NCBI GenBank assembly: GCA_015179125.1
Contig: WHVA01000459.1
Span: forward strand, 1 to 64,000
Reading direction: 5' to 3'
Source: Gautieria morchelliformis
Lineage: Eukaryota; Basidiomycota; Agaricomycetes; Gomphales; Gomphaceae
Length of the DNA stretch: 64,000 bases
Positions 3,321 to 62,844 of this stretch are shown here, in pieces. Within the stretch, counting starts at the first letter, position 1. Each line of letters starts with the position of its first letter. Made by a program: the position numbers and the translations under genes. The notes below the pieces were generated by a model, which made no database searches, was not told the DNA's origin, and saw only the letters and a list, made by a program, of their open reading frames with translations.

Positions 3321-3470
3321 GTACAATCTGCGCCGCTGAGTCCTCGTGGTCTGATTCCACGGTGAGGTCAATGACCACGCGCTCATTCAGATCTCGTACA
3401 ATCTATGCCGCTGAGTCCTCGTGGTCCGATTCCACGGTGAGGTCAATGACCATGCGCTCATTCAGATCTC
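3321..3470 (+). repeat. 75-bp tandem repeat, two copies
   Basis: Two head-to-tail 75-bp units (3321-3395 and 3396-3470) both start GTACAATCT and end GCTCATTCAGATCTC. They differ at only a few positions, including the bases after GTACAATCT, C/T in GGTCTGATT and ACCACGC/ACCATGC. The low divergence implies a recent duplication. No coding role is evident. Confidence 0.9.
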
Positions 3471-5666: not shown

Positions 5667-8027
5667 ATGCCAGCATCGACACCATCTCCCACCCTTAATC
5701 TACAGGAAATTGTTTTGCTTTGTGGCCCTGCAGCGGAATGGCTTAGAGGCCAAATGCCCGAGTACCTCAACCTCGACATGAAACGTGGCTCCTGAGCCGG
5801 ATATTCTCAGCTCAAGGTGACTGAATTTATTGAACACTTTGGCCTTGGCTTACAGTGCCAGGATGATGGTCGCATGCACGATCCCCTAGAAGGCCTGTCG
5901 CTTCGCACAGGTCCAGCCACGGCAGGTGCACTGCAAGAGGTCAATTCCTTTCGCTTCCTCACTTTGATGAGCAATTTGTCTAATACCTGTTTGTGCCAAG
6001 ACAGGCAATTACATGGTGGTTACTTAACAATGCAAAGACTCACCGTGCAAAGAATACCAAAATCGCCCCATCACTGATCTCGTTTGCCCCACCGACCAAG
6101 AAGACCCATGCCAAATCTCTCTTCGCTCGGGCGCATTCCAGCGAGCTCAAGAACCATATGAACACGAAAGTGCGCGCCCTTGAGCTGCCAACACAGAACA
6201 ATCTCGCTTTTTGGTATGAAGCCTTGAGCGAGCTTTTGGATGCAGAAACCCCTGAAGAACAAGCTGAGTGGTACCGTCAGGCCGAACAGCAAAATAACCA
6301 GGTTTCCGGCGAAGCATCTGCTGCAGAAATTGACAGGTTCGTGACAATATCCATCCTACACACATCTTGGTTTATCCCTGTTCACAGCAATCAGCAGCTG
6401 GCTCCCGCCACTCTTCAGAATGTTCTCCAACATCTGCTCGGTTGAGAGCCAAATCAGATTGGGGAGGCTGTTTTTCATTTACAGGGAGCAATGCTGGGAC
6501 AAGGTGATGTGATCCAAATTTTCAGGTATGTGGCCACTGTCTGCCCATCACTGTGCACCAATGTGGTCTAGCTGCTGCGTCGGGCCACCAGGAGCGGAAG
6601 AGCTCGAGTCATATTATGGTGAATATGACACTCACTTGAGCCACCCCTTTGTCGACTGGGCCCATCATGTACTGAGTCGTAAGTGGTTCCCAGCGCGTAC
6701 CTGCATTCCAATTTAACCAAGCTTGTCAGCGGTCACCACACCTTACGTTGATGGTGTCACTGTTCAACCTAACGGAATGCCAGTCATGCCTGATCTAGAC
6801 ACTGAAGAGCTCTCCAATGCGCAGTTCACACAGCTTTTGGCAGAGTACCTGGCACATGCCTGGCGTAAGCATCATCACCTCCTCAAGGGCGCTGTGTGAG
6901 TGACATGCCTTTGTCACGCAGGCTTTGCACACACAGCCGTGGGTGCTCCCACTGTGCCACCCATTCCCTGGACCAAGGTCGCGAGTTCCCCTGACCAATT
7001 TGTACACCCCAACCGCTTGCCCCAAAACATCATCTTCAAGAAGCCCGGCGATATGCTAGGTGCACATCGCCAACTTCTTTACCTCCATATCATTGAACAT
7101 CAAGATCCTTTTGATGAGATACATCAGTTTGCATTCACTCCCAGCACTGAGATCGAAGAAATCCTTGAATATGAAACTGAAATCCCAGGACACGAAATGT
7201 AAGTCATACCTGTCATTTACCAGTTGACTCCTGTTGGTCTGAAACACTGATCAGACCCGCCGACGGACAAATGCAGAAACTGCCAACTGAAACATCAGGT
7301 TCCAACTTGAGGACCACTTACATGGTTACCCAAGCCACGCAATATCATGAGATCCCACCACCAAATACCCTCGAGGCCCAAACAGAAGCAACTGCGGGAC
7401 ACACGTCAACAGTTCAGACGCTTCCCCATGCTGACCTGTTGCTACCAGCGCAACGGATCAAACATGCAGCACAGAGGTCTACAGAGGATAATCACAGTTC
7501 TAGACAGGATCATGTCGAGGAACCACATTCACTGCATGAACCAGAAACGCCACTTATGGGGAGGAGTACCTGTCGAGCAACAAGCCCAAGTTCCGGTGCT
7601 TTGGCCGCTGACCTTGAGCCCAAACTCCCTGGCCCTAGTAAAGGTCAGGCCAAACGCAAAACTTGCGCGGATAAGGAGTGAGCCCCTTTTGAAATAGTGT
7701 GAGTATGATACAATGGTGACGGCTCACTCAGGGTGACTCAAACAAAAGAACGGCAAGGGCGTGGCAAGAGGTACGTGCAACGGCTGCTGAAGACATAGTG
7801 ACCAACGAGCTTTTGTAGGCCTCACATGCTGTCTGAGAAGGCCGCGATCGCCAAACAGTATGTCCACTGAACCGTGATTTTTATGTTGACCCTTTGACAT
7901 AAACAGAGAACGTGTAGCCCGCACATCATTATCGGCATCTCATGGCTGTGGTGGAGGCAAGCGTGGTATCAGGGGGTCAAGAGGTCGAGGGGCTGGAGTA
8001 CGGGGCCACAAGGCCACGGGAGCCTAG
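5667..8027 (+). CDS. unrecognised multi-exon gene with RG-rich C-terminus
   Basis: Eleven exons can be traced: 5667-5939, 6005-6336, 6388-6440, 6489-6525, 6572-6678, 6730-6864, 6922-7198, 7255-7677, 7732-7770, 7819-7857 and 7907-8027. The ten GT-AG introns are 46-65 nt long and the frame is kept across the junctions. An in-frame TGA at 5793-5795 interrupts the first exon, so either the gene is inactive or the first exon is wrong. The product has a helical segment with FWYEALSELLDAETPEEQ, an acidic middle, a Ser/Thr/Pro-rich region and a basic tail with repeated RG/GRG, typical of nucleic-acid binding. No named domain is recognised. The consistent splicing argues for a real gene. Its relation to the gene ending at 5153 is unknown. 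Confidence 0.55.
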
Positions 8028-8972
8028 TGGGAATTGCACACGGTGAGTGCGTGGGACTGCCCGAGCCCGAAAATGATCCTGATGACCGAAAAATGATCAC
8101 AGGCAATTGATTCACTGATATAGGTAACTCAGAAGTGCCCCAAAGTGACCTAGAATAGAGTGGATATAGAGCCGATTCTTGAATCGTGGTTATACTGGAT
8201 TGACATAATTAACGATGTGTATTTCCATTGCAACTCCATTGGATTGATTTTGGATTTGTATTGAGTCGAAATCTGTGAATTCTTGCGTTGGATTCCCAGT
8301 GAATTCATGGGTTACTTCGATGCGAATGTTGAACGGTCTTTTCGTCATATTGCCATCGTATTTTTGGGAGTATCGGTGGCGCACGAGTGGAATCGGATGG
8401 AGAAAAAAAAATCCAATAGAAAAGCAATTAATCAAAAGGCCCTTGCTCATAAGGTAGGATTTCATAGTTTCAGCTTTATTGCCTGCCAATTTGTATAGAT
8501 ATATTGGCTCAACAGAATTGAACATAGGTATAGTGATATGCACCCTTTCTCTTGGCTATCTTCCGATTTCCTGTCTCTGCGGAAGTCCCCAGACTCCAAC
8601 GACTTATCCACCGACACAGACACGAAAAGCCCCCATAGCACAAAAAGTCGAGCAAGTACATCTCCCATTTGTGCGCCTTGAATATCATGCGGATGCGCTT
8701 CTTCACGATGTCCCAGATCTGTGTGAGACCCGGGTAAAATGCAGAACAAAAAGGCAAAGGAGGTCAGCATCAAAAGCACAGCGCAACTGAATGCACCCTG
8801 GCTCCAAGCCTCTGGAAGGCCGGCATAATTATATTGAACATCCAATGCATGTGACCTCCTCTGCATCTGGCGTGTTCCTGGGGCCTGAAAGGCTAAAACC
8901 CCCAGCCTGCAGGACTCGCAAGCAGCATGCTGCATGGCCGCCAAAAACACTGAATCGGCGAAGTGGCCTGCA
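8028..8972. other. no supported gene
   Basis: Moderately AT-rich DNA with short open frames on both strands. None shows a domain, an intron pattern or biased composition. I see no repeat unit in it. Confidence 0.35.
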
Positions 8973-25659: not shown

Positions 25660-26902
25660 TCATCTCTGTTTTCTATCAACAGGATACAGAGACAGCATAT
25701 GGGGAAAGAGAACATACACAGCGACCACAAGGCGATACACTAAAGATGACGACCTGAAAGGCAACAGAGAGTGGTACTCCAAGTGCCTTCCCTCCAGTCC
25801 GTTGAAAAACCCCCAGCGGCGGTACAGAATGTGGATTATGCATGCTTTGAAAGAGATTAAGGAAACAACAAAGCGAGGGTCAACTTACAATCAAATACGA
25901 GAGTGACAATCAAGATAGAGAGCAATAAGGTGTACTGAGAGATAGGGCTGTGGATGTCGTAGTTGGTTTGCCAAGTCTGGATGAAGGCATGGAAAGTACT
26001 CACAAGGTGTGCTGAGAGATAAGGCTCTGGAGGTCGCAGTCGGTTTGCAAAGTCTAGATGAAGGCATGGAAAGTGCTCACAAGGCGTTCTTATCAAGTAA
26101 CATACAATAAAAATTCCTCTAAGAGGCAAATAATCTTCCAGATTGAAACTGAAAATAGATTCAAAATCAGAGAGGCTTAGCCGTAGAAGCAATGGGGCCT
26201 GACGAGAGGTTACCGCCAGCACCGACAGCCGGCAACGAGAACGCCAGTTGAGCCACGTAAGGCGCTGCTAAAAGCTGTCGTAGTGAAGAAAGGTCTCATA
26301 AATACCAGTGACAGGTTGACAAATGAGATCTACCGTAGCTCTCGTCCATCGAATCTGTCTGTGACTACGAGGCTCATGAATAGCAGCTTTGAAATCAAAC
26401 CAAAGCTACGTGTGTTTGAATTGTGTACTCATCATGACGATAAAAGAACACGGCTACCTGAACAATCAATGCAGACATGGCTGTATCTGTCATCGCCTGA
26501 GCTCCGGAGCCCAGTGCTGCCTGAGTCAAGCACTCCTGGTCGGACTGGATGAATGGAAAAGGGCATCCAAGAACTAGACTTGCTGGTCCTAAACGGTATA
26601 GTCTGCCGCATCCCGTGCTGTGCCCCGAAATACGACAAGCATTTGACTCACCCGAAAGAGAATGTTACGCTGGAAAATATCCATGTGAAGTAAAAGTTAT
26701 GAAACGTAAGATCCCGTTGCGCCGTTTTCGAAAATATAGAGAAAAGGAGGCGGATGGGAAGTCCAATGTGACCGCCGATGATCTGCAGCGCACGGTAAAT
26801 GGCTTGCTGTTGCCTCAGCTCTGCAAAAGATCCGCACAAAGCAGATGAAGAGGGCAGCAGGAAAATTAATGAGTCTCCCGCACGTTCGTTTGGTTGATTC
26901 AT
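25660..26902 (-). CDS. probable multi-pass membrane protein, 3' end cut by a repeat
   Basis: Starting at the ATG at 26900-26902, exon 1 (26652-26902) encodes IGGHIGLPIRLLFSIFSK and a second membrane span (FHNFYFTWIFSSVTFS). Exon 2 (26458-26578) follows in frame with ECLTQAALGSGAQAMTD. Further exons carry APYVAQLAFSLPAVGAG (near 26250), TLLLSILIVTLVFD (near 25890) and RLVVAVYVLFPHMLSLYPV (near 25700). The spacing and HxGLP, QAAL and APY blocks resemble an expanded agaricomycete seven-span receptor-like family that I know only as uncharacterised. A 77-bp tandem duplication (25927-26079) overlaps one exon, and MITE copy C lies where the C-terminus should continue. Likely truncated; exon joins beyond exon 2 are tentative, and ligand and partner are unknown. 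Confidence 0.45.
25927..26079 (-). repeat. 77-bp tandem duplication, two copies
   Basis: Units 25927-26003 and 26004-26079 both begin AAGGTGT.CTGAGAGATA and end TGAAGGCATGGAAAGT.CTCAC. They differ at about ten positions. The unit covers an exon edge of the overlapping membrane-protein gene. Confidence 0.85.
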
Positions 26903-29946: not shown

Positions 29947-32604
29947 TCAGGTGGGCCCACTAAATGATACGTGCTTAGTTCTGTCAGACCAGCGCGGCCA
30001 TTTGAAACACGTTTTTCTTGTGCCATCGGCTCTTGTGGGAACATTGCTAAATTCAGCAAGTTTCCTTCGGAACGCTACTATATTTGGACGCTCTTGTGGG
30101 CGGACACTCCAGCAGATTGTCAAGAAATACCAGAAGGGATCGTTTGGCGAGTATTTGATCTTCATTGATGGTCTCGCGAGGACATTTCCGTCGACTAGAA
30201 CATGTTTCAGAACCTGTGGATCGCTGAGACCTTGGTAAGGCTCTTCGAGAAGTATTAACTTGGAGAAAGTCATTGACTGAGAGCCGATGAATTTTATAGA
30301 TGCCACGATGTTACCTACCTCGATGCAGGTGCTCGCAAATGCATATACATCGCTTTTTTCACTTTTTGATTGAACTGGTGAGTCAGCGATCAAGGTCTCA
30401 GGTGCCGACCAGCGAATGGAAGAGGGAAGGCTGGTGGTGATAGAACCTGTTTTTGCCATAATTAAGCCGACTACTTGGAAAAGGCCATAATTTATAAGCC
30501 TCGGCGTTCCCGTATCGGTGACCATAATATGTGCCTATAGGCTTCGTTTTGCGTGGGTTGTGCGTGACTTTGTAAACGACTCACGCATCTAATGTCCCCA
30601 TGAACTATTCCTTTGGCGTGAAGATATAAAACTCCATCCGCGATCTCCTGAAGCTTGAGACAACGATAAATGAAGGTGCAGTCGTAAATGATCTGGAAGG
30701 TCATACCATGTGTAGAGTGTTGATGTCATTATGCGCCTTGACATATTCCAGCACAGTCCCATTGTGGTATAAGGGCCAGGCCATGCCTACGGCGCTGTGC
30801 TCCAAGACTAACCCGTAGAATGGGCTGATATTCTTGTGAGACAGCGCCTGCCACCGTAGAAACTCGCGATAAAGAGGCTGGTTGGCTATGGGTCGGCGAT
30901 AAAACTAGCTGGAGTTGAAAATATATCGTACTTTCACAAATAGATCATATGGTTTGCCTGGTGTTCGCAAGAATCTGATCACAACCTGCAGTCTGGCGTA
31001 AATTGTTTCCATTCTGGATAAAACATACACTCACTTGAATTTCACCGGTCTTCGTGTTATATACGCCCTCCACATCAGAGTTTAAGTTATCTGCGAGGGA
31101 CAGACTACCCGTCTTGAGCACAGCACTCGAAATATCTACACTTGGCTCCGAATTATCTTTTTGCCCAGGAGTCTCGCGAATGGCTTCCGGGTATGCTGAC
31201 GTTGTCGACAAAGGTATGAGTGGATCTCGACTTAGTTTTTCTTCTTGAGATGGTGACATCTCGTTTAATAATTTGAAGATTTCATAGGCATGTCCGCGGA
31301 CATTTGGGTTCTGGTGTTGGCGTAGTAGGTCGAATATTGTCTTCTTCTTGATACAAAGCTCGACGAATGGTGCGGACCCCCAGTAAAAACAGTGGATGAT
31401 ACGTTTCAATACCTATGTCAAGTACGTATGCACATCGTAATGCCTTGGAAATATCACACCTGGAACTCACCTTGACACTCTCGTCATAATTTTTCCGCAA
31501 CGATGACGTGGGGCTGATTAAGTCATCTACAGCATTCAATATCGAGCCCAGTCCGTCATTTCCACTGGATAAATCACGATGTCGTCAATGATGAAAGTTG
31601 TTTAGATCAGGAGAGTCACCTATGAAACGTCATCATAGCCACCTCTTCTTTCTCTCGAAGAAGTATAGATTTAGATTGCTCATGTTTACTCTCATGTTCG
31701 TGTTTGCTCTCAGGCTGGTCTTCGCTAAGCAAGGCAATGAGATTGGTCCTTAGTAAGTCAAATATTACTCACTGCAAGGATTCTTTTATGGTCGACAACC
31801 TTGTTTTCTTATGGTTTACGCTAAGCAAGGCAATGAGATTGGTCCTTAGTAACTCAAATATTACTCACTGCAAGGCTTTTATGTTCTGACGTTTCTGTTT
31901 CCTCTGTTCTGGCCTAGGCAAGGCAATGAGATTGGTCCTTAGTAACTCAAATATTACTCACTTCAAGCTTTCTTTTCTGTTCTCCCGTCTCAGGAGTAGC
32001 TCGGGGGTGAATAGTTCCGGAATGATCACAGGAGCTGGCCGCTCCTGCAAGGAATCTGGAAAAATAACAGATCTGGATACTGTTGATGAAGAGCCCGCTT
32101 TGTGTGTCCCAGATGGTTGAACAGAATTAATCAGGACCCGAGATAGAGAGCGTGCGTCGGACGAGATCTCGCGTGCGACAGGATTTCCGCCACCTTCATA
32201 TTGCTCTAAGCTGCCTAGAAATTGCGCCTGCGACGCACAGAAGATTTTGAATTCAGAGGATACATGCGAAAGACAACTCTTCATCAATTTAAGAGTCTAA
32301 TGCGATAAGTGTGTTATTATCATTGGTTTGTTTATAAGGCACTGGCAGAACTTACATGCAAAATTTCGAGGGGTTCATATGAATATGGGTGCCTAAGTCG
32401 TCGGACCATTACCCTTTGTATTTCCTTCCGCGCCTCCCTGACAACAAAGTAAGACTCAGCTTTGACCGGGCGTGGGTGAGATGCATTTACTAACTCGATG
32501 TATGTTAGCCTAGATATCTCGGCCACCTGAGTGGAGTCTGGTGGCTTTGCTGGATCGATTGCAGCACGTACGAGCAGTTTTATCGCCTCGATATCAACAA
32601 GCAT
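29947..32604 (-). CDS. TKL-type protein kinase-like protein (predicted pseudokinase), 691 aa
   Basis: Twelve exons on the minus strand (32356-32604, 31962-32296, 31869-31913, 31773-31820, 31620-31724, 31471-31564, 31035-31412, 30932-30985, 30707-30877, 30585-30653, 30319-30534, 29947-30258) sum to 2076 nt and close in frame. The N-terminal ~390 residues are helical and include a Lys/Glu-rich linker. The kinase domain fills residues ~400-660: VVIR for the beta-3 VAIK, a REF alpha-C glutamate, HGDIRCAH for the catalytic loop, INYGL for DFG, WSAPE, SDVYAFAS and a typical C-lobe (ICWSVRPQERP). Lys becomes Arg, the loop Asn becomes His and the DFG Asp becomes Asn, so phosphotransfer is unlikely and a scaffold role is inferred. 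Three of its introns are nearly identical (31725-31961). Fungal TKL kinases are numerous and poorly assigned. Confidence 0.85.
31725..31961 (-). repeat. three near-identical 48-nt introns
   Basis: Introns at 31914-31961, 31821-31868 and 31725-31772 each run GTGAGTAATATTTGA ... TTACTAAGG ... TTGCYTAG and differ from the middle one at a single base. All are phase 2 and 48 nt long. The intervening exons of 45 and 48 nt share only their last ~20 nt well (ATAAAAG..CTTGCA). Confidence 0.92.
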
Positions 32605-44400: not shown

Positions 44401-46821
44401 TCAATAGGTGTATGGACCCAGGTAAGCGCCATGCCCAGTGCTATGGCTTTGATAGACGAGTTCTGACATGAGTCAATGAATTCCAGGATAATGATACTAC
44501 AGCATTCGTGACAGATACCCGCAATTTTCTAGCTGCATTTGGGAATACAATCTCTCAGAGTGCTCCCCATCTCTATTTTCGGCACTCCCGTTTGCACCTG
44601 AAAGGTCGAAAGTATCTGAGACTTACCTCCCACGATTTCCACGACTACTGAGCATCGAGACCGGGAAAGCGACGAACTGGCCACCAATTCAATCCGTTCT
44701 GGAAGGCCACACCGGCGTGGTCACGTCGGTGGCATTCTCGCATGACGGCAAGCGCATCGTCTCCGGGTCTGGTGACAAGACGATCCGTGTGTGGAATGCA
44801 GAGACCGGGGAGGCCATTTCAGCACCATTCGAAGGCCACACCGCCGGGGTTACGTCGGTGGCATTCTCGCAGGACGGCAAGCGCATCTTCTCTGAGTCTG
44901 ATGACAAGACGATCCGTGTGTGGAATGCAGACACCGGGGAGCTCATTTCAGCACCATTCGAAGCCCACGCCGGCTCATTCAAGTGTGTGGCGTGCTCGCA
45001 CGATGGCAAGCGCATCGTCTCCGTATCTGATGACCAGACGTTCCGTGTGTGGAATGCAGAGACCGGGGAGCTCATTTCAGCACCATTCGAAGGCCAAGCC
45101 GACAGCGTCTTGTCGGTGGCGTTCTCGCACGATGGCAAGCGCATTGTCTCCGGGTTTTCAGGGTACACGATCTGTGTGTGGAATGCAGACACCGGGGAGC
45201 TCGTTTCAGAATTATTCGGAGGCCACACCGACTGGGTCTGGTCGGTGGCGTTCTCGCATGACGGCAAGCACATCGTCTCGGGGTCTCGTGACAAGACGAT
45301 CTGTGTGTGGAATGCAGACACCGGGGAGCTCATTTCAGCACCATTCAAAGGCCACACCAGCAGGGTCAGCTCGGTGGCGTTCTCGCATGACGGCAAGCGC
45401 ATCGTCTCCGGGTCTTTTGACAAGACGATCCGTTTGTGGAATGCAGACACCGGGGAGCTCATTTCAGCACCATTCGAAGGCCACACCGAATTGGTCATTT
45501 CGGTGGCGTTCTCGCACGACGGCAAGCGTATCGTCTCCGGGTCTTTAGACAAGACGATCCGTATATGGAATGCAGACACCGCGGAGGTCATTTCAGCACC
45601 ATTCGAAGGCCATGCCTCCTGGGTCACGTCGGTGGCGTTCTCGTACGATGGCAAGCGCATCGTCTCCGGGTCTGAAGACAAGGCGATCCGTGTGTGGAAT
45701 GCAGACACCGGGGAGCTCATTTCAGCACCATTCGGAGGCGACATCGACTGGAACAGGATGATGACGTTCTCACCTGAAAGCCACTCCTCCTGGGTCAGGT
45801 GGGTGGCGTTCTCACATGATGGTAAGCGCATCGTCTCCGGCTCTGAAGACAAGGCGATCCTTGTGTGGAATGCAGACACCGGGGAGCTCATTTCAGCACC
45901 ATTCGAAGGCCACACCGAATTGGTCATCTCGGTGGCGTTCTCGCACGACGACAAGCGCATCGTCTCCGGGTCTGAAGACAAGACGATCCGTGTGTGGAAT
46001 GCAGACACGGGGGAGGTCGTTTCAGGACCATTCGAAGGCCACACCGACGGGGTCAAGTCGGTGGCATTCTCGCTGGACGGCAAGCGCATCGTCTCTGGGT
46101 CTGAAGACACCACGATCCGTGTGTGGAATGCAGACACCGGGGAGCTCATTTCAGCACCATTTGAAGGCCACACCTCTTGGGTCAGGTCGGTGGTGTTCTC
46201 GCAGGACGGCAAGCGCATCGTCTCCGGGTCTGATGACAAGACGATCCGTGTGTGGGATGCACACACCGGGGAGCTAATTTCAGCACCATTCGAAGGCCAC
46301 ACCTCCTGGGTCAGCTCGGTGGCGTTCTCGCATGACGGCAAGCGCATCGTCTCCGGGTCTGGAGACCAAACGATTCGTTTGTGGAATGCAGACACCCGGG
46401 AGCTCATTTCAACACCATTTGAAGGCCACACCGGCGAGGTCATGTCGGTGGCGTTCTCGCACGACGGCAAGCGCATCGTCTCAGGGTCTGAAGACCACAC
46501 CGTCCGTGTGTGGAATGCAGACACCGGACCATTCGCAGGTCAGGCACCTAGTCAGTAGCTGTTGCCTTAATTTGTTGGAACATGACGAAACCTGCTAATA
46601 TCCTTTGCACAGCTACAGGGCCTTTTCGACATGACTCACGGCTAGAAAATGGCTGGTTACTTAACTCGCCCTCAGAGCTTTTATTCTGGGTTCCACCCTG
46701 GTCTCAGCCAGGTTTGTGGTGGCCGGCGAATACCGCCGTTATCGTGAAGGGGTCCACAAAGGTTGATATGAGCCGGTTTGAGCATGGGACTTCGTGGACA
46801 CAATGCAGAGGGGCAGCCTGA
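41410..46821 (+). CDS. C2-NACHT-WD40 NLR (STAND, HET-E-like), copy 1, frame-disrupted
   Basis: The gene starts near the ATG at 41410. A C2-like region (about 41590-41930: HHPNIGLFGQRPGKYYVKLF ... MEVYRHHRISSDEYIGG) precedes a helical linker. The NACHT ATPase is in exon 42893-44421, with Walker A FLNDVAGAGKSAIAHE, Walker B VMVIDALDES and LLITSRGEEV. Fourteen WD40 units (44717-46550) follow, then a spliced last exon (46613-46821) with LLFWVPPW and GLWWPANTAV. Such receptors act in fungal heterokaryon incompatibility or non-self sensing; that role is inferred. Compared with copy 2, one base is missing near 44580, which puts the WD40 array out of frame with NACHT. This is either a real lesion or a sequence error. 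Splicing within the C2 part is unresolved in both copies. Confidence 0.88.
44717..46550 (+). repeat. WD40-encoding tandem array, 14 x ~129 bp
   Basis: Units encode ~43 residues of the form VTSVAFSHDGKRIVSGS, then DKTIRVWNADTGE and ISAPFEGHT. Unit 8 is 14 residues longer (RMMTFSPESHSSW inserted). Variation concentrates at the residue after SGS, in the two residues after GHT and in the residue after V. The repeat period keeps the antisense strand open for 611 codons. Confidence 0.95.
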
Positions 46822-61000: not shown

Positions 61001-62844
61001 GTCAGGGAGTTCTTCGAGACTAAGCTACTCTACTGGCTAGAAGTTTTGAGTTTGCTCAAGAAGGTACCCATCGTATCGGCAGCGCTCTCATCAATAGGTG
61101 TATGGAGCCAGGTAAGCGCCACGCCCAAGTGCTATGGCTTTCGTAGACGAGTTCTGACATGACTCTAATGAACTTTAGAATATTGATACTACAGCATTTG
61201 TGACGGATACCCGCAATTTTCTAGCTGCATTTGGGAATGTACTCTCTCAGAGTGCTCCCCATCTCTATTTGTCGGCATTGCCGTTTGCCCCTGAAAGGTC
61301 GAAACTATCTGAGACTTACCTCCCACGATTTCCACGACTACTCAGCATCGAGACAGGGAAAGCGACGAACTGGCCCCCAATTCAATCCGTTCTGGAAGGT
61401 CACACCGACGGGGTCACTTCGGTGGCATTCTCGCAGGACGGCAAGCGCATCGTCTCCGGGTCTCGCGACAAGACGATCCGTGTGTGGAATGCAGACACCG
61501 GGGAGGTCATTTCAGCACCATTTGAAGGCCACACTGGCGAGGTCATGTCGGTGGCATTCTCGCATGACGGCAAGCGCATCATCTCAGGGTCTGATGACAA
61601 GACAATCCGTGTGTGGAATGCAGACACCGGGGAGGTAAATTCCGCACCATTCGAAGGTCACACCGACGAAGTCACGTCCGTGGCATTCTCGCATGATGGC
61701 AAGCGCATCATCTCCGGGTCTTATGACACCACGATCGGTATGTGGAATGCAGACACCGGGGAGGTCATTTCAGCACCATTCGAAGGCCATACCGACAAGG
61801 TCACGTCGGTGGCGTTCTCGCACGACGGCAAGCGGATCGTCTCCGGGTTTGTTGACAAGACGATCCGTGTGTGGAATGCAGACACCGGGGAGGTCATTTC
61901 AGCACCATTTGAAGGCCACACTTGCCGGGTCACGTCGGTGGCGTTCTCGCATGACGGCAAGCGCATTGTCTCCGGGTCTGCAGACAACACGATCCGTGTG
62001 TGGAATGCAGGCACTGGGGAGGTCATTTCAGCACCATTCGAAGGCCACACCGAATGGGTCACGTCGGTGGCGTTCTCGCATGACGGCAAGCGCATCGTAT
62101 CGGGGTGTTATGACAGGATGATCCGTGTGTGGAATGCAGACACCGGAGAGGTCATTTCAGCACCATTTGAAGGCCACGCCTACGGCGTCACGTCGGTAGC
62201 GTTCTCGCACAACGGCAAGCGCATTGTCTCCGGGTCTGCGGACAACACGATCCGCGTGTGGAATGCAGACACCAGGGAGGTCATTCCAGCGCCATTCGAA
62301 GGCCACACCGAATCGGTCAGGTCGGTGGCATTCTCCCACGATGGCAAGCGTGTCGTCTCCGGGTCTTTTGACAACACGATCCGTGTCTGGAATGCAGAGA
62401 CCGGGGAGCTCATTTCAGCACCATTTGAAGGCCACACCCACTGGGTCACGTCGGTGGCATTCTCGCACGATGGCAAGCGCATTGTCTCCGGGTCTTATGA
62501 CAACACGATCCGCGTGTGGAATGGAGACACCGGGGAGGTCATTTCAGCACCATTCGCAGGTCAGGCACCCAGTCAGTAGCTGTTACCTTGATTTGTGTGA
62601 ACATTATGAACCTGCTAATATCCTTTGCACGGCTACAGGGCCTGAGTTTCGACATGACTCACGGCTAGAAAATGGCTGGTTACTCAACTCGCCCTCAGAA
62701 CTTTTATTCTGGGTTCCACCCTGGTCTCAGGTAGGTTTGTGGTGGCCGGCAAATACCACTGTTATTGCAAAGAGGTCCACAAAGCTTGATCTCAGCCGGT
62801 TTGAGCATGGGACTTCATGGATGCAATGCAGAGGGGTGGCATGA
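58100..62844 (+). CDS. C2-NACHT-WD40 NLR, copy 2, frame-disrupted
   Basis: It has the same layout as copy 1: start near the ATG at 58100, C2-like region, helical linker, NACHT (exon from about 59585; FLNDVAGAGKSAIAHE, VMVIDALDES, LLITSRTEKD), nine WD40 units (61400-62571) and the terminal exon (62639-62844; LLFWVPPW, GLWWPANTTV). Relative to copy 1 the codons near 60826-60835 lack two bases, which ends the NACHT frame about 60 residues before the hinge. The hinge-to-WD40 junction that is broken in copy 1 is open here (AFGNVLSQSAPHLYLSALPF leading into the repeats). The acceptor before the last exon has shifted by 26 bases and stays in frame. Role as for copy 1, inferred. Confidence 0.88.
61400..62571 (+). 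repeat. WD40-encoding tandem array, 9 x ~129 bp
   Basis: Nine units use the same consensus as copy 1. Most carry EVISAPFEGHT where copy 1 favours ELISAPFEGHT, so each array has partly homogenised within itself. The array is shorter than that of copy 1 by five units. Confidence 0.95.

Follow-up and report, generated by a model that had tools for sequence, protein, structure and literature searches.

A candidate case of local tandem intron multiplication in a kinase-like gene of Gautieria morchelliformis

Three putative introns of 48 nt, differing from one another by one or two bases, lie side by side in a single kinase-like gene within a 64,000-nt stretch of Gautieria morchelliformis DNA (contig WHVA01000459.1, positions 1 to 64,000, referred to below as the window). 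The explanation that we favour, with somewhat better than even confidence, is that one 48-nt intron was multiplied locally in tandem within a repeat-prone linker, and that the introns were later duplicated again or homogenised while the exons changed fast. The unusual point of this array is that its introns are more alike than its exons.

Results

Three near-identical introns in one gene

The features of the array and of its host gene are as follows.

31914..31961, minus strand: intron copy 1, 48 nt, phase 2, GTGAGT...TACTAAG...CCTAG
31821..31868, minus strand: intron copy 2, 48 nt, phase 2, ending in CTTAG
31725..31772, minus strand: intron copy 3, 48 nt, phase 2, C at base 16
31962..31983, minus strand: last 22 nt of the upstream exon (Ea), 16 of 22 identical to the same place in Ec
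31869..31913, minus strand: putative exon Eb, 45 nt, between copies 1 and 2
31773..31820, minus strand: putative exon Ec, 48 nt, between copies 2 and 3
31620..31724, minus strand: downstream exon (Ed), matching Ec at 7 of its first 10 nt
31035..32604, minus strand: 5' part of the gene, beginning at the predicted ATG (32604) and ending directly before the donor at 31034
29950..30892, minus strand: kinase-like part of the host gene, with its exons read in pieces

The coordinates and the 48-nt length of the three introns, first given in a first-pass annotation of this DNA, were re-read from the sequence and hold, as do the differences reported there: C/T at base 45 between copies 1 and 2, and G/C at base 16 between copies 2 and 3. 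The mismatches thus number one between copies 1 and 2, one between copies 2 and 3, and two between copies 1 and 3. GTGAGT and TACTAAG are present in all three copies, as had been claimed; TTAG, ascribed to all of them as well, is found in only two, copy 1 ending in CTAG. Modelled splicing agrees with the annotation in placing all three introns in phase 2. The 48-nt intron had no match at up to three mismatches in 100 dinucleotide shuffles of the window, and chance likeness of the three copies is excluded. Each copy is closed by stops in every reading frame, a TGA following at once in that of the exon; a coding reading of the 48-mers is rejected on account of these stops, because of which the segments must be spliced if the gene is used. 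A size typical of introns in this gene likewise favours splicing, though indirectly.

Six introns of 48-59 nt are modelled in the 5' part of the gene, with a predicted start codon and predicted splice sites; the modelled introns of the first gene part measure 59, 48, 48, 48, 55, 58 and 49 nt. The gene had been described as closing in frame, and this stands through seven introns (436 codons, no stop), the kinase part being open in pieces only. A hand-joined 3' stretch matches Pfam kinase models (PF07714, 1.8e-22), while two hand-joined stretches upstream of the kinase region gave no Pfam family. NYG stands at the place of DFG, the usual kinase motif at that position, which would be in line with naming the product a pseudokinase. 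The host locus has one match in the assembly, and a literature search found no publication describing the gene.

The exons carry a weaker repeat in register with the introns

Directly before the intron, Eb and Ec both have CATAAAAG, followed by a 3-nt indel and CCTTGCA, and the likeness weakens farther off; the earlier description of exons matching mainly over their last ~20 nt was therefore broadly right. Upstream of copies 2 and 3, the indel is the sole difference within 15 exonic nt, and 2 nt downstream are also common to both. The unbroken identity of copy 1 with copy 2 or 3 extends past the splice sites by 1 nt upstream and by 0 nt downstream. The copies are spaced 96 and 93 nt apart, a difference due to the 3-nt AAT indel in the exon. 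The repeat unit of the array measures ~79 nt and takes in exon ends, clearly for copies 2 and 3 and more weakly for copy 1 (16/22 with Ec).

The in-register alignment of Eb with Ec was equalled or beaten by none of 2000 base shuffles, those of Ea with Eb and of Ec with Ed by 4/2000 each and that of Ea with Ec by 33/2000, and Eb and Ed were only weakly and not significantly similar (125/2000 as good); single bases and not codons were shuffled, and an A-rich coding bias may inflate these exon similarities. The in-register exons, together with the 15 common exonic nt around the indel, point to local multiplication of a segment made up of an exon end plus the intron.

Whichever of the small exons Eb and Ec are included, the four possible combinations are open and of equal length modulo 3. 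Both exons are multiples of three with phase 2 on either side, so that the frame survives when a unit is gained, lost or skipped, and such a change would thus be tolerable. The open skip forms include a version with a single 237-nt intron, and frame alone therefore cannot prove that Eb and Ec are exons.

The end of exon Ed can be aligned with the paralogues described below (ILLREKEEVAMMTF / ILELDKDEVAKMTF). An 18-nt tandem repeat, read by eye on the minus strand at 31676-31711, also lies in this exon and codes for ESKHEHESKHEQ (ESKHEH / ESKHEQ); the linker is thus repeat-prone beyond the intron array.

Paralogues without the linker

Only two family members were found in the assembly, as adjacent genes on contig C579 (loci L009, L010 and L042). 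They can be aligned to the window gene to either side of the linker, and in the models three of their introns agree with its own in place and phase (0, 2, 0). Both are without 99 linker residues and have there a single modelled phase-1 intron of 79 or 80 nt, in which no likeness to the 48-mer was seen beyond splice signals (484/2000 shuffles as good). Common descent of the 48-mer with this intron is rejected, given the absence of similarity beyond these signals and the phases, 1 versus 2. Since the paralogues are without the linker and their intron is unlike the 48-mer, the array, as far as the gene models go, is located in a linker particular to the window gene among the family members found. 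The missing linker is at most suggestive of a varying copy number, a gain here and a loss there fitting alike. A kinase query gave no match on C579 at E 1e-5. By eye, the non-coding DNA flanking the paralogue pair also looks duplicated.

Introns and exons have diverged unequally

Introns 2 and 3 are identical at 47/48 positions and exons Eb and Ec at 27/45 in frame (Fisher p 3.4e-6), or at 31/44 when gaps are placed liberally (Fisher p 2.5e-4). The claim that the introns are more alike than the adjacent exons is thereby borne out. The Eb-Ec mismatches fall 5, 7 and 6 on codon positions 1, 2 and 3 (15 of each), with no sign of a silent-site excess among them. In the in-frame reading, all 9 complete codon pairs that differ by substitution alter the amino acid; only 3 of these 9 differ by a single base, too few for testing.

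A duplication of a single age, with equal rates over whole units, gave likelihood ratios of 23.9 in frame and 15.3 in the liberal gapped alignment, and 7.3 for copies 1 and 3 with the 22 upstream nt. These values reject a single tandem duplication with equal exon and intron rates, so that a hypothetical second process must be added. In the 15 exonic nt that border copies 2 and 3, divergence does not exceed that of the intron (likelihood ratio 0.55), which suggests that the copied segment reached into the exon.

The paralogue pair on C579 served as a control: its exons are 90.6% (687/758) and its introns 91.6% (316/345) identical. One intron was taken 20 nt longer here than in the later model; all five introns scored 88-93%, and the conclusion is therefore independent of this difference. 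As the pair diverges equally in introns and exons, a general intron constraint is unlikely as the cause of the intron identity. Recent re-duplication or exchange accounts better for the extra likeness of the three introns, as does an unusual speed of the linker exons.

Genome-wide search for further copies

The whole assembly (122,073,039 bases, 1113 contigs) was searched with the 48-nt intron at up to three mismatches. Three matches were obtained, all of them in the host gene, and each half of the intron searched alone under the same threshold led to the same three places only; these counts are lower bounds for repeats, and the DNA search skips very common words. A reversed-pattern control had no match in the whole assembly. 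The annotation had proposed such a search for copies at other intron sites; it returned only the host-gene copies, and an introner, tried as a candidate, is rejected on these searches with the whole intron and its halves at up to three mismatches.

Further arrays were surveyed in 30 sequences that included the window and totalled 259,270 bases, about 0.2% of the genome. Pairs had to be of equal length, at least 80% alike, canonical, provided with a branch-site motif and within 2 kb of each other. Only the host-gene array passed, after 2 rows at WD40 periods had been dropped. The filter, with its branch-site motif and equal lengths, did not pick up the repeat at 25927-26084 (see below), and a sample of this size under so strict a filter says little on rarity.

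Discussion

A scenario for the array, and its rivals

Under the favoured explanation, the starting point would be one spliceosomal 48-nt intron in the low-complexity, repeat-prone linker of a kinase-like gene. A segment running from the end of one exon through the complete intron into the start of the next would have been duplicated by replication slippage or unequal crossing over, presumably at the level of DNA, and the three copies would be spliced. Afterwards the exon middles would have changed fast by substitution and slippage, and meanwhile the introns would have been duplicated again or homogenised via short exchanges between copies. The order of these events and the homogenising step are what we infer from the present sequence. 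Judged by the intron identity, the multiplication was probably recent. Of the two readings offered in the first-pass annotation, tandem duplication with conversion is kept as the best one, in view of the in-register exon similarity and of introns that are more alike than exons; the introner-like reading is given up.

One feature of the array, the identity of copy 1 ending at the splice sites, fits intron-only copying better than the favoured explanation. The intron of one unit of an old exonic repeat may have been copied precisely into the matching place of the others, either through reverse splicing and reverse transcription or through conversion of a unit lacking the intron, with the exons unmoved. 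Introns that are 96-98% alike between exons (Eb/Ec) that are 60% alike in frame would also be expected from such a course, as would identity of copy 1 that stops no more than 1 nt from the splice sites on both sides. Against it stand the 15 exonic nt, with the indel, that copies 2 and 3 have in common upstream and the 2 nt downstream, and the genome, where no copy was found elsewhere at up to three mismatches; moreover, we know of no intron-less unit or species. We regard this route as unlikely, although with a real chance of being right, and the conclusion that the intron spread within one gene in this way, into matching sites of an older exonic repeat, as doubtful to a very slightly greater degree. 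If true, it would be a form of intron propagation that is neither an introner nor an ordinary tandem duplication. Plain tandem duplication of exon plus intron could do without any homogenisation if diversifying selection or slippage acted on the exons and the introns simply drifted. All nine differing Eb-Ec codon pairs altering the amino acid, the even spread of mismatches over codon positions and the WD40-like arrays nearby, with units 84-86% alike, are consistent with it, WD40-like repeat arrays being a class known for diversifying evolution of units. It would, however, require a charged low-complexity linker to be under very strong selection, excess exon change is absent from the C579 pair, and the codons with single-base differences are too few for testing; we consider it distinctly improbable.

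The array might instead be one 237-nt intron with internal repeats (31725-31961), or be spliced variably, Eb and Ec then not being exons, or not always. Its length is divisible by three, splicing from the outer donor to the outer acceptor keeps the frame, the models of both C579 paralogues show one intron near the same place, and the openness of exons as short as Eb and Ec is weak evidence for them. But every copy has the full signal set at a typical size (48 nt, the others being modelled at 49-59 nt), and the likeness of the 48-nt cores would be left unexplained, which makes this reading hard to credit. Hardest of all to credit is a dispersed introner-like element that inserted three times in the host gene by happenstance, an idea to which we give almost no weight. 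Near-identical GT-AG units with a branch site in one gene are what it has in its favour. The 122 Mb of the assembly yielded no further copy at up to three mismatches, whole or by halves, and fungal introner-like elements have an unusually stable predicted RNA fold, whereas the fold of the three copies is ordinary (z -1.23, -0.07 and 0.22).

Relation to known systems

By analogy, the closest precedent for the array is CNN00420 of Cryptococcus neoformans, where introns were gained by repeat expansion (Sharpton et al. 2008, PMC2395259). As described there, that gene is, like the present one, single-copy, with introns identical or one base apart and with short exonic repeats in the same gene; the repeated unit comprises exon ends and a full intron in both (~107 nt in CNN00420, ~79 nt here) (PMC2395259). 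Several near-identical introns in one gene and not elsewhere are thus found in both cases. CNN00420 is documented by ESTs, by orthologues that have gaps at two of the introns and by strains differing in repeat number (PMC2395259), whereas the array is read from sequence. In the array, as a difference from CNN00420, the exon middles resemble one another far less than the introns do.

The introns of the spider silk gene MaSp2 of Argiope, which are on average 97.6% alike within the gene, have been linked in their homogenisation to unequal crossing over (PMC9779670). The silk genes Flag and MaSp2 and the array have in common near-identical introns alternating with repeat exons; the former are structural genes of animals, built of many units whose exons are homogenised, whereas the latter has three tiny units with diverged exons (PMC9779670, PMC3522626). 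Introns more alike than the exons would predict, as in the silk genes, are seen here except at the 15 exonic nt bordering copies 2 and 3. Introner-like elements of Dothideomycetes are likewise near-identical fungal spliceosomal introns, but are described in hundreds of copies in unrelated genes, against three in one gene here (PMC4457414). In Zymoseptoria tritici, other intron duplications, including those in tandem within a gene, made up <1% of single intron gains in that report (PMC4457414). The creation of introns by tandem duplication at an exon-intron boundary involves a local tandem duplication as well; there a new intron is created across the duplicate, whereas here a complete intron would have been multiplied, which the paper on that route terms propagation and not creation.

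Few clear cases of recent intron gains with an identified source are described (PMC4974935). The array joins a known, rarely described kind of intron gain, to which it adds one example. Source intron and copies stand side by side in it, and its small size allows sequencing in different strains. The array could serve to distinguish DNA-based tandem multiplication from intron-only copying, and to show how intron homogenisation behaves in a fast-changing linker.

Other repeats in and near the window

Two tandem copies of a 77-nt unit (88%) were seen at 25927-26084. Read by eye on the minus strand, they form two 69-nt GTGAG...CTCTCAG intron-like stretches 8 nt apart; on the plus strand the units read as a GVLRDKALEVAVGLQSLDEGMESAHKA-like peptide, and either strand may be genic. 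At 3321-3470 there are two tandem copies of a 75-nt unit, a multiple of three, with 94% matches. WD40-like and minisatellite arrays dominate among the matches listed by an unfiltered repeat search. A minisatellite of GTGTCCCCACAGGTAGC-like units lies at L033, ~7400-8200 (G000:C400). Two large arrays of 129-nt units, 84-86% alike, occupy 44702-46527 and 61395-62560; we take these units to be WD40-like from their motif. Further 129-nt units are present on the same contig (L040, 4366-5267).
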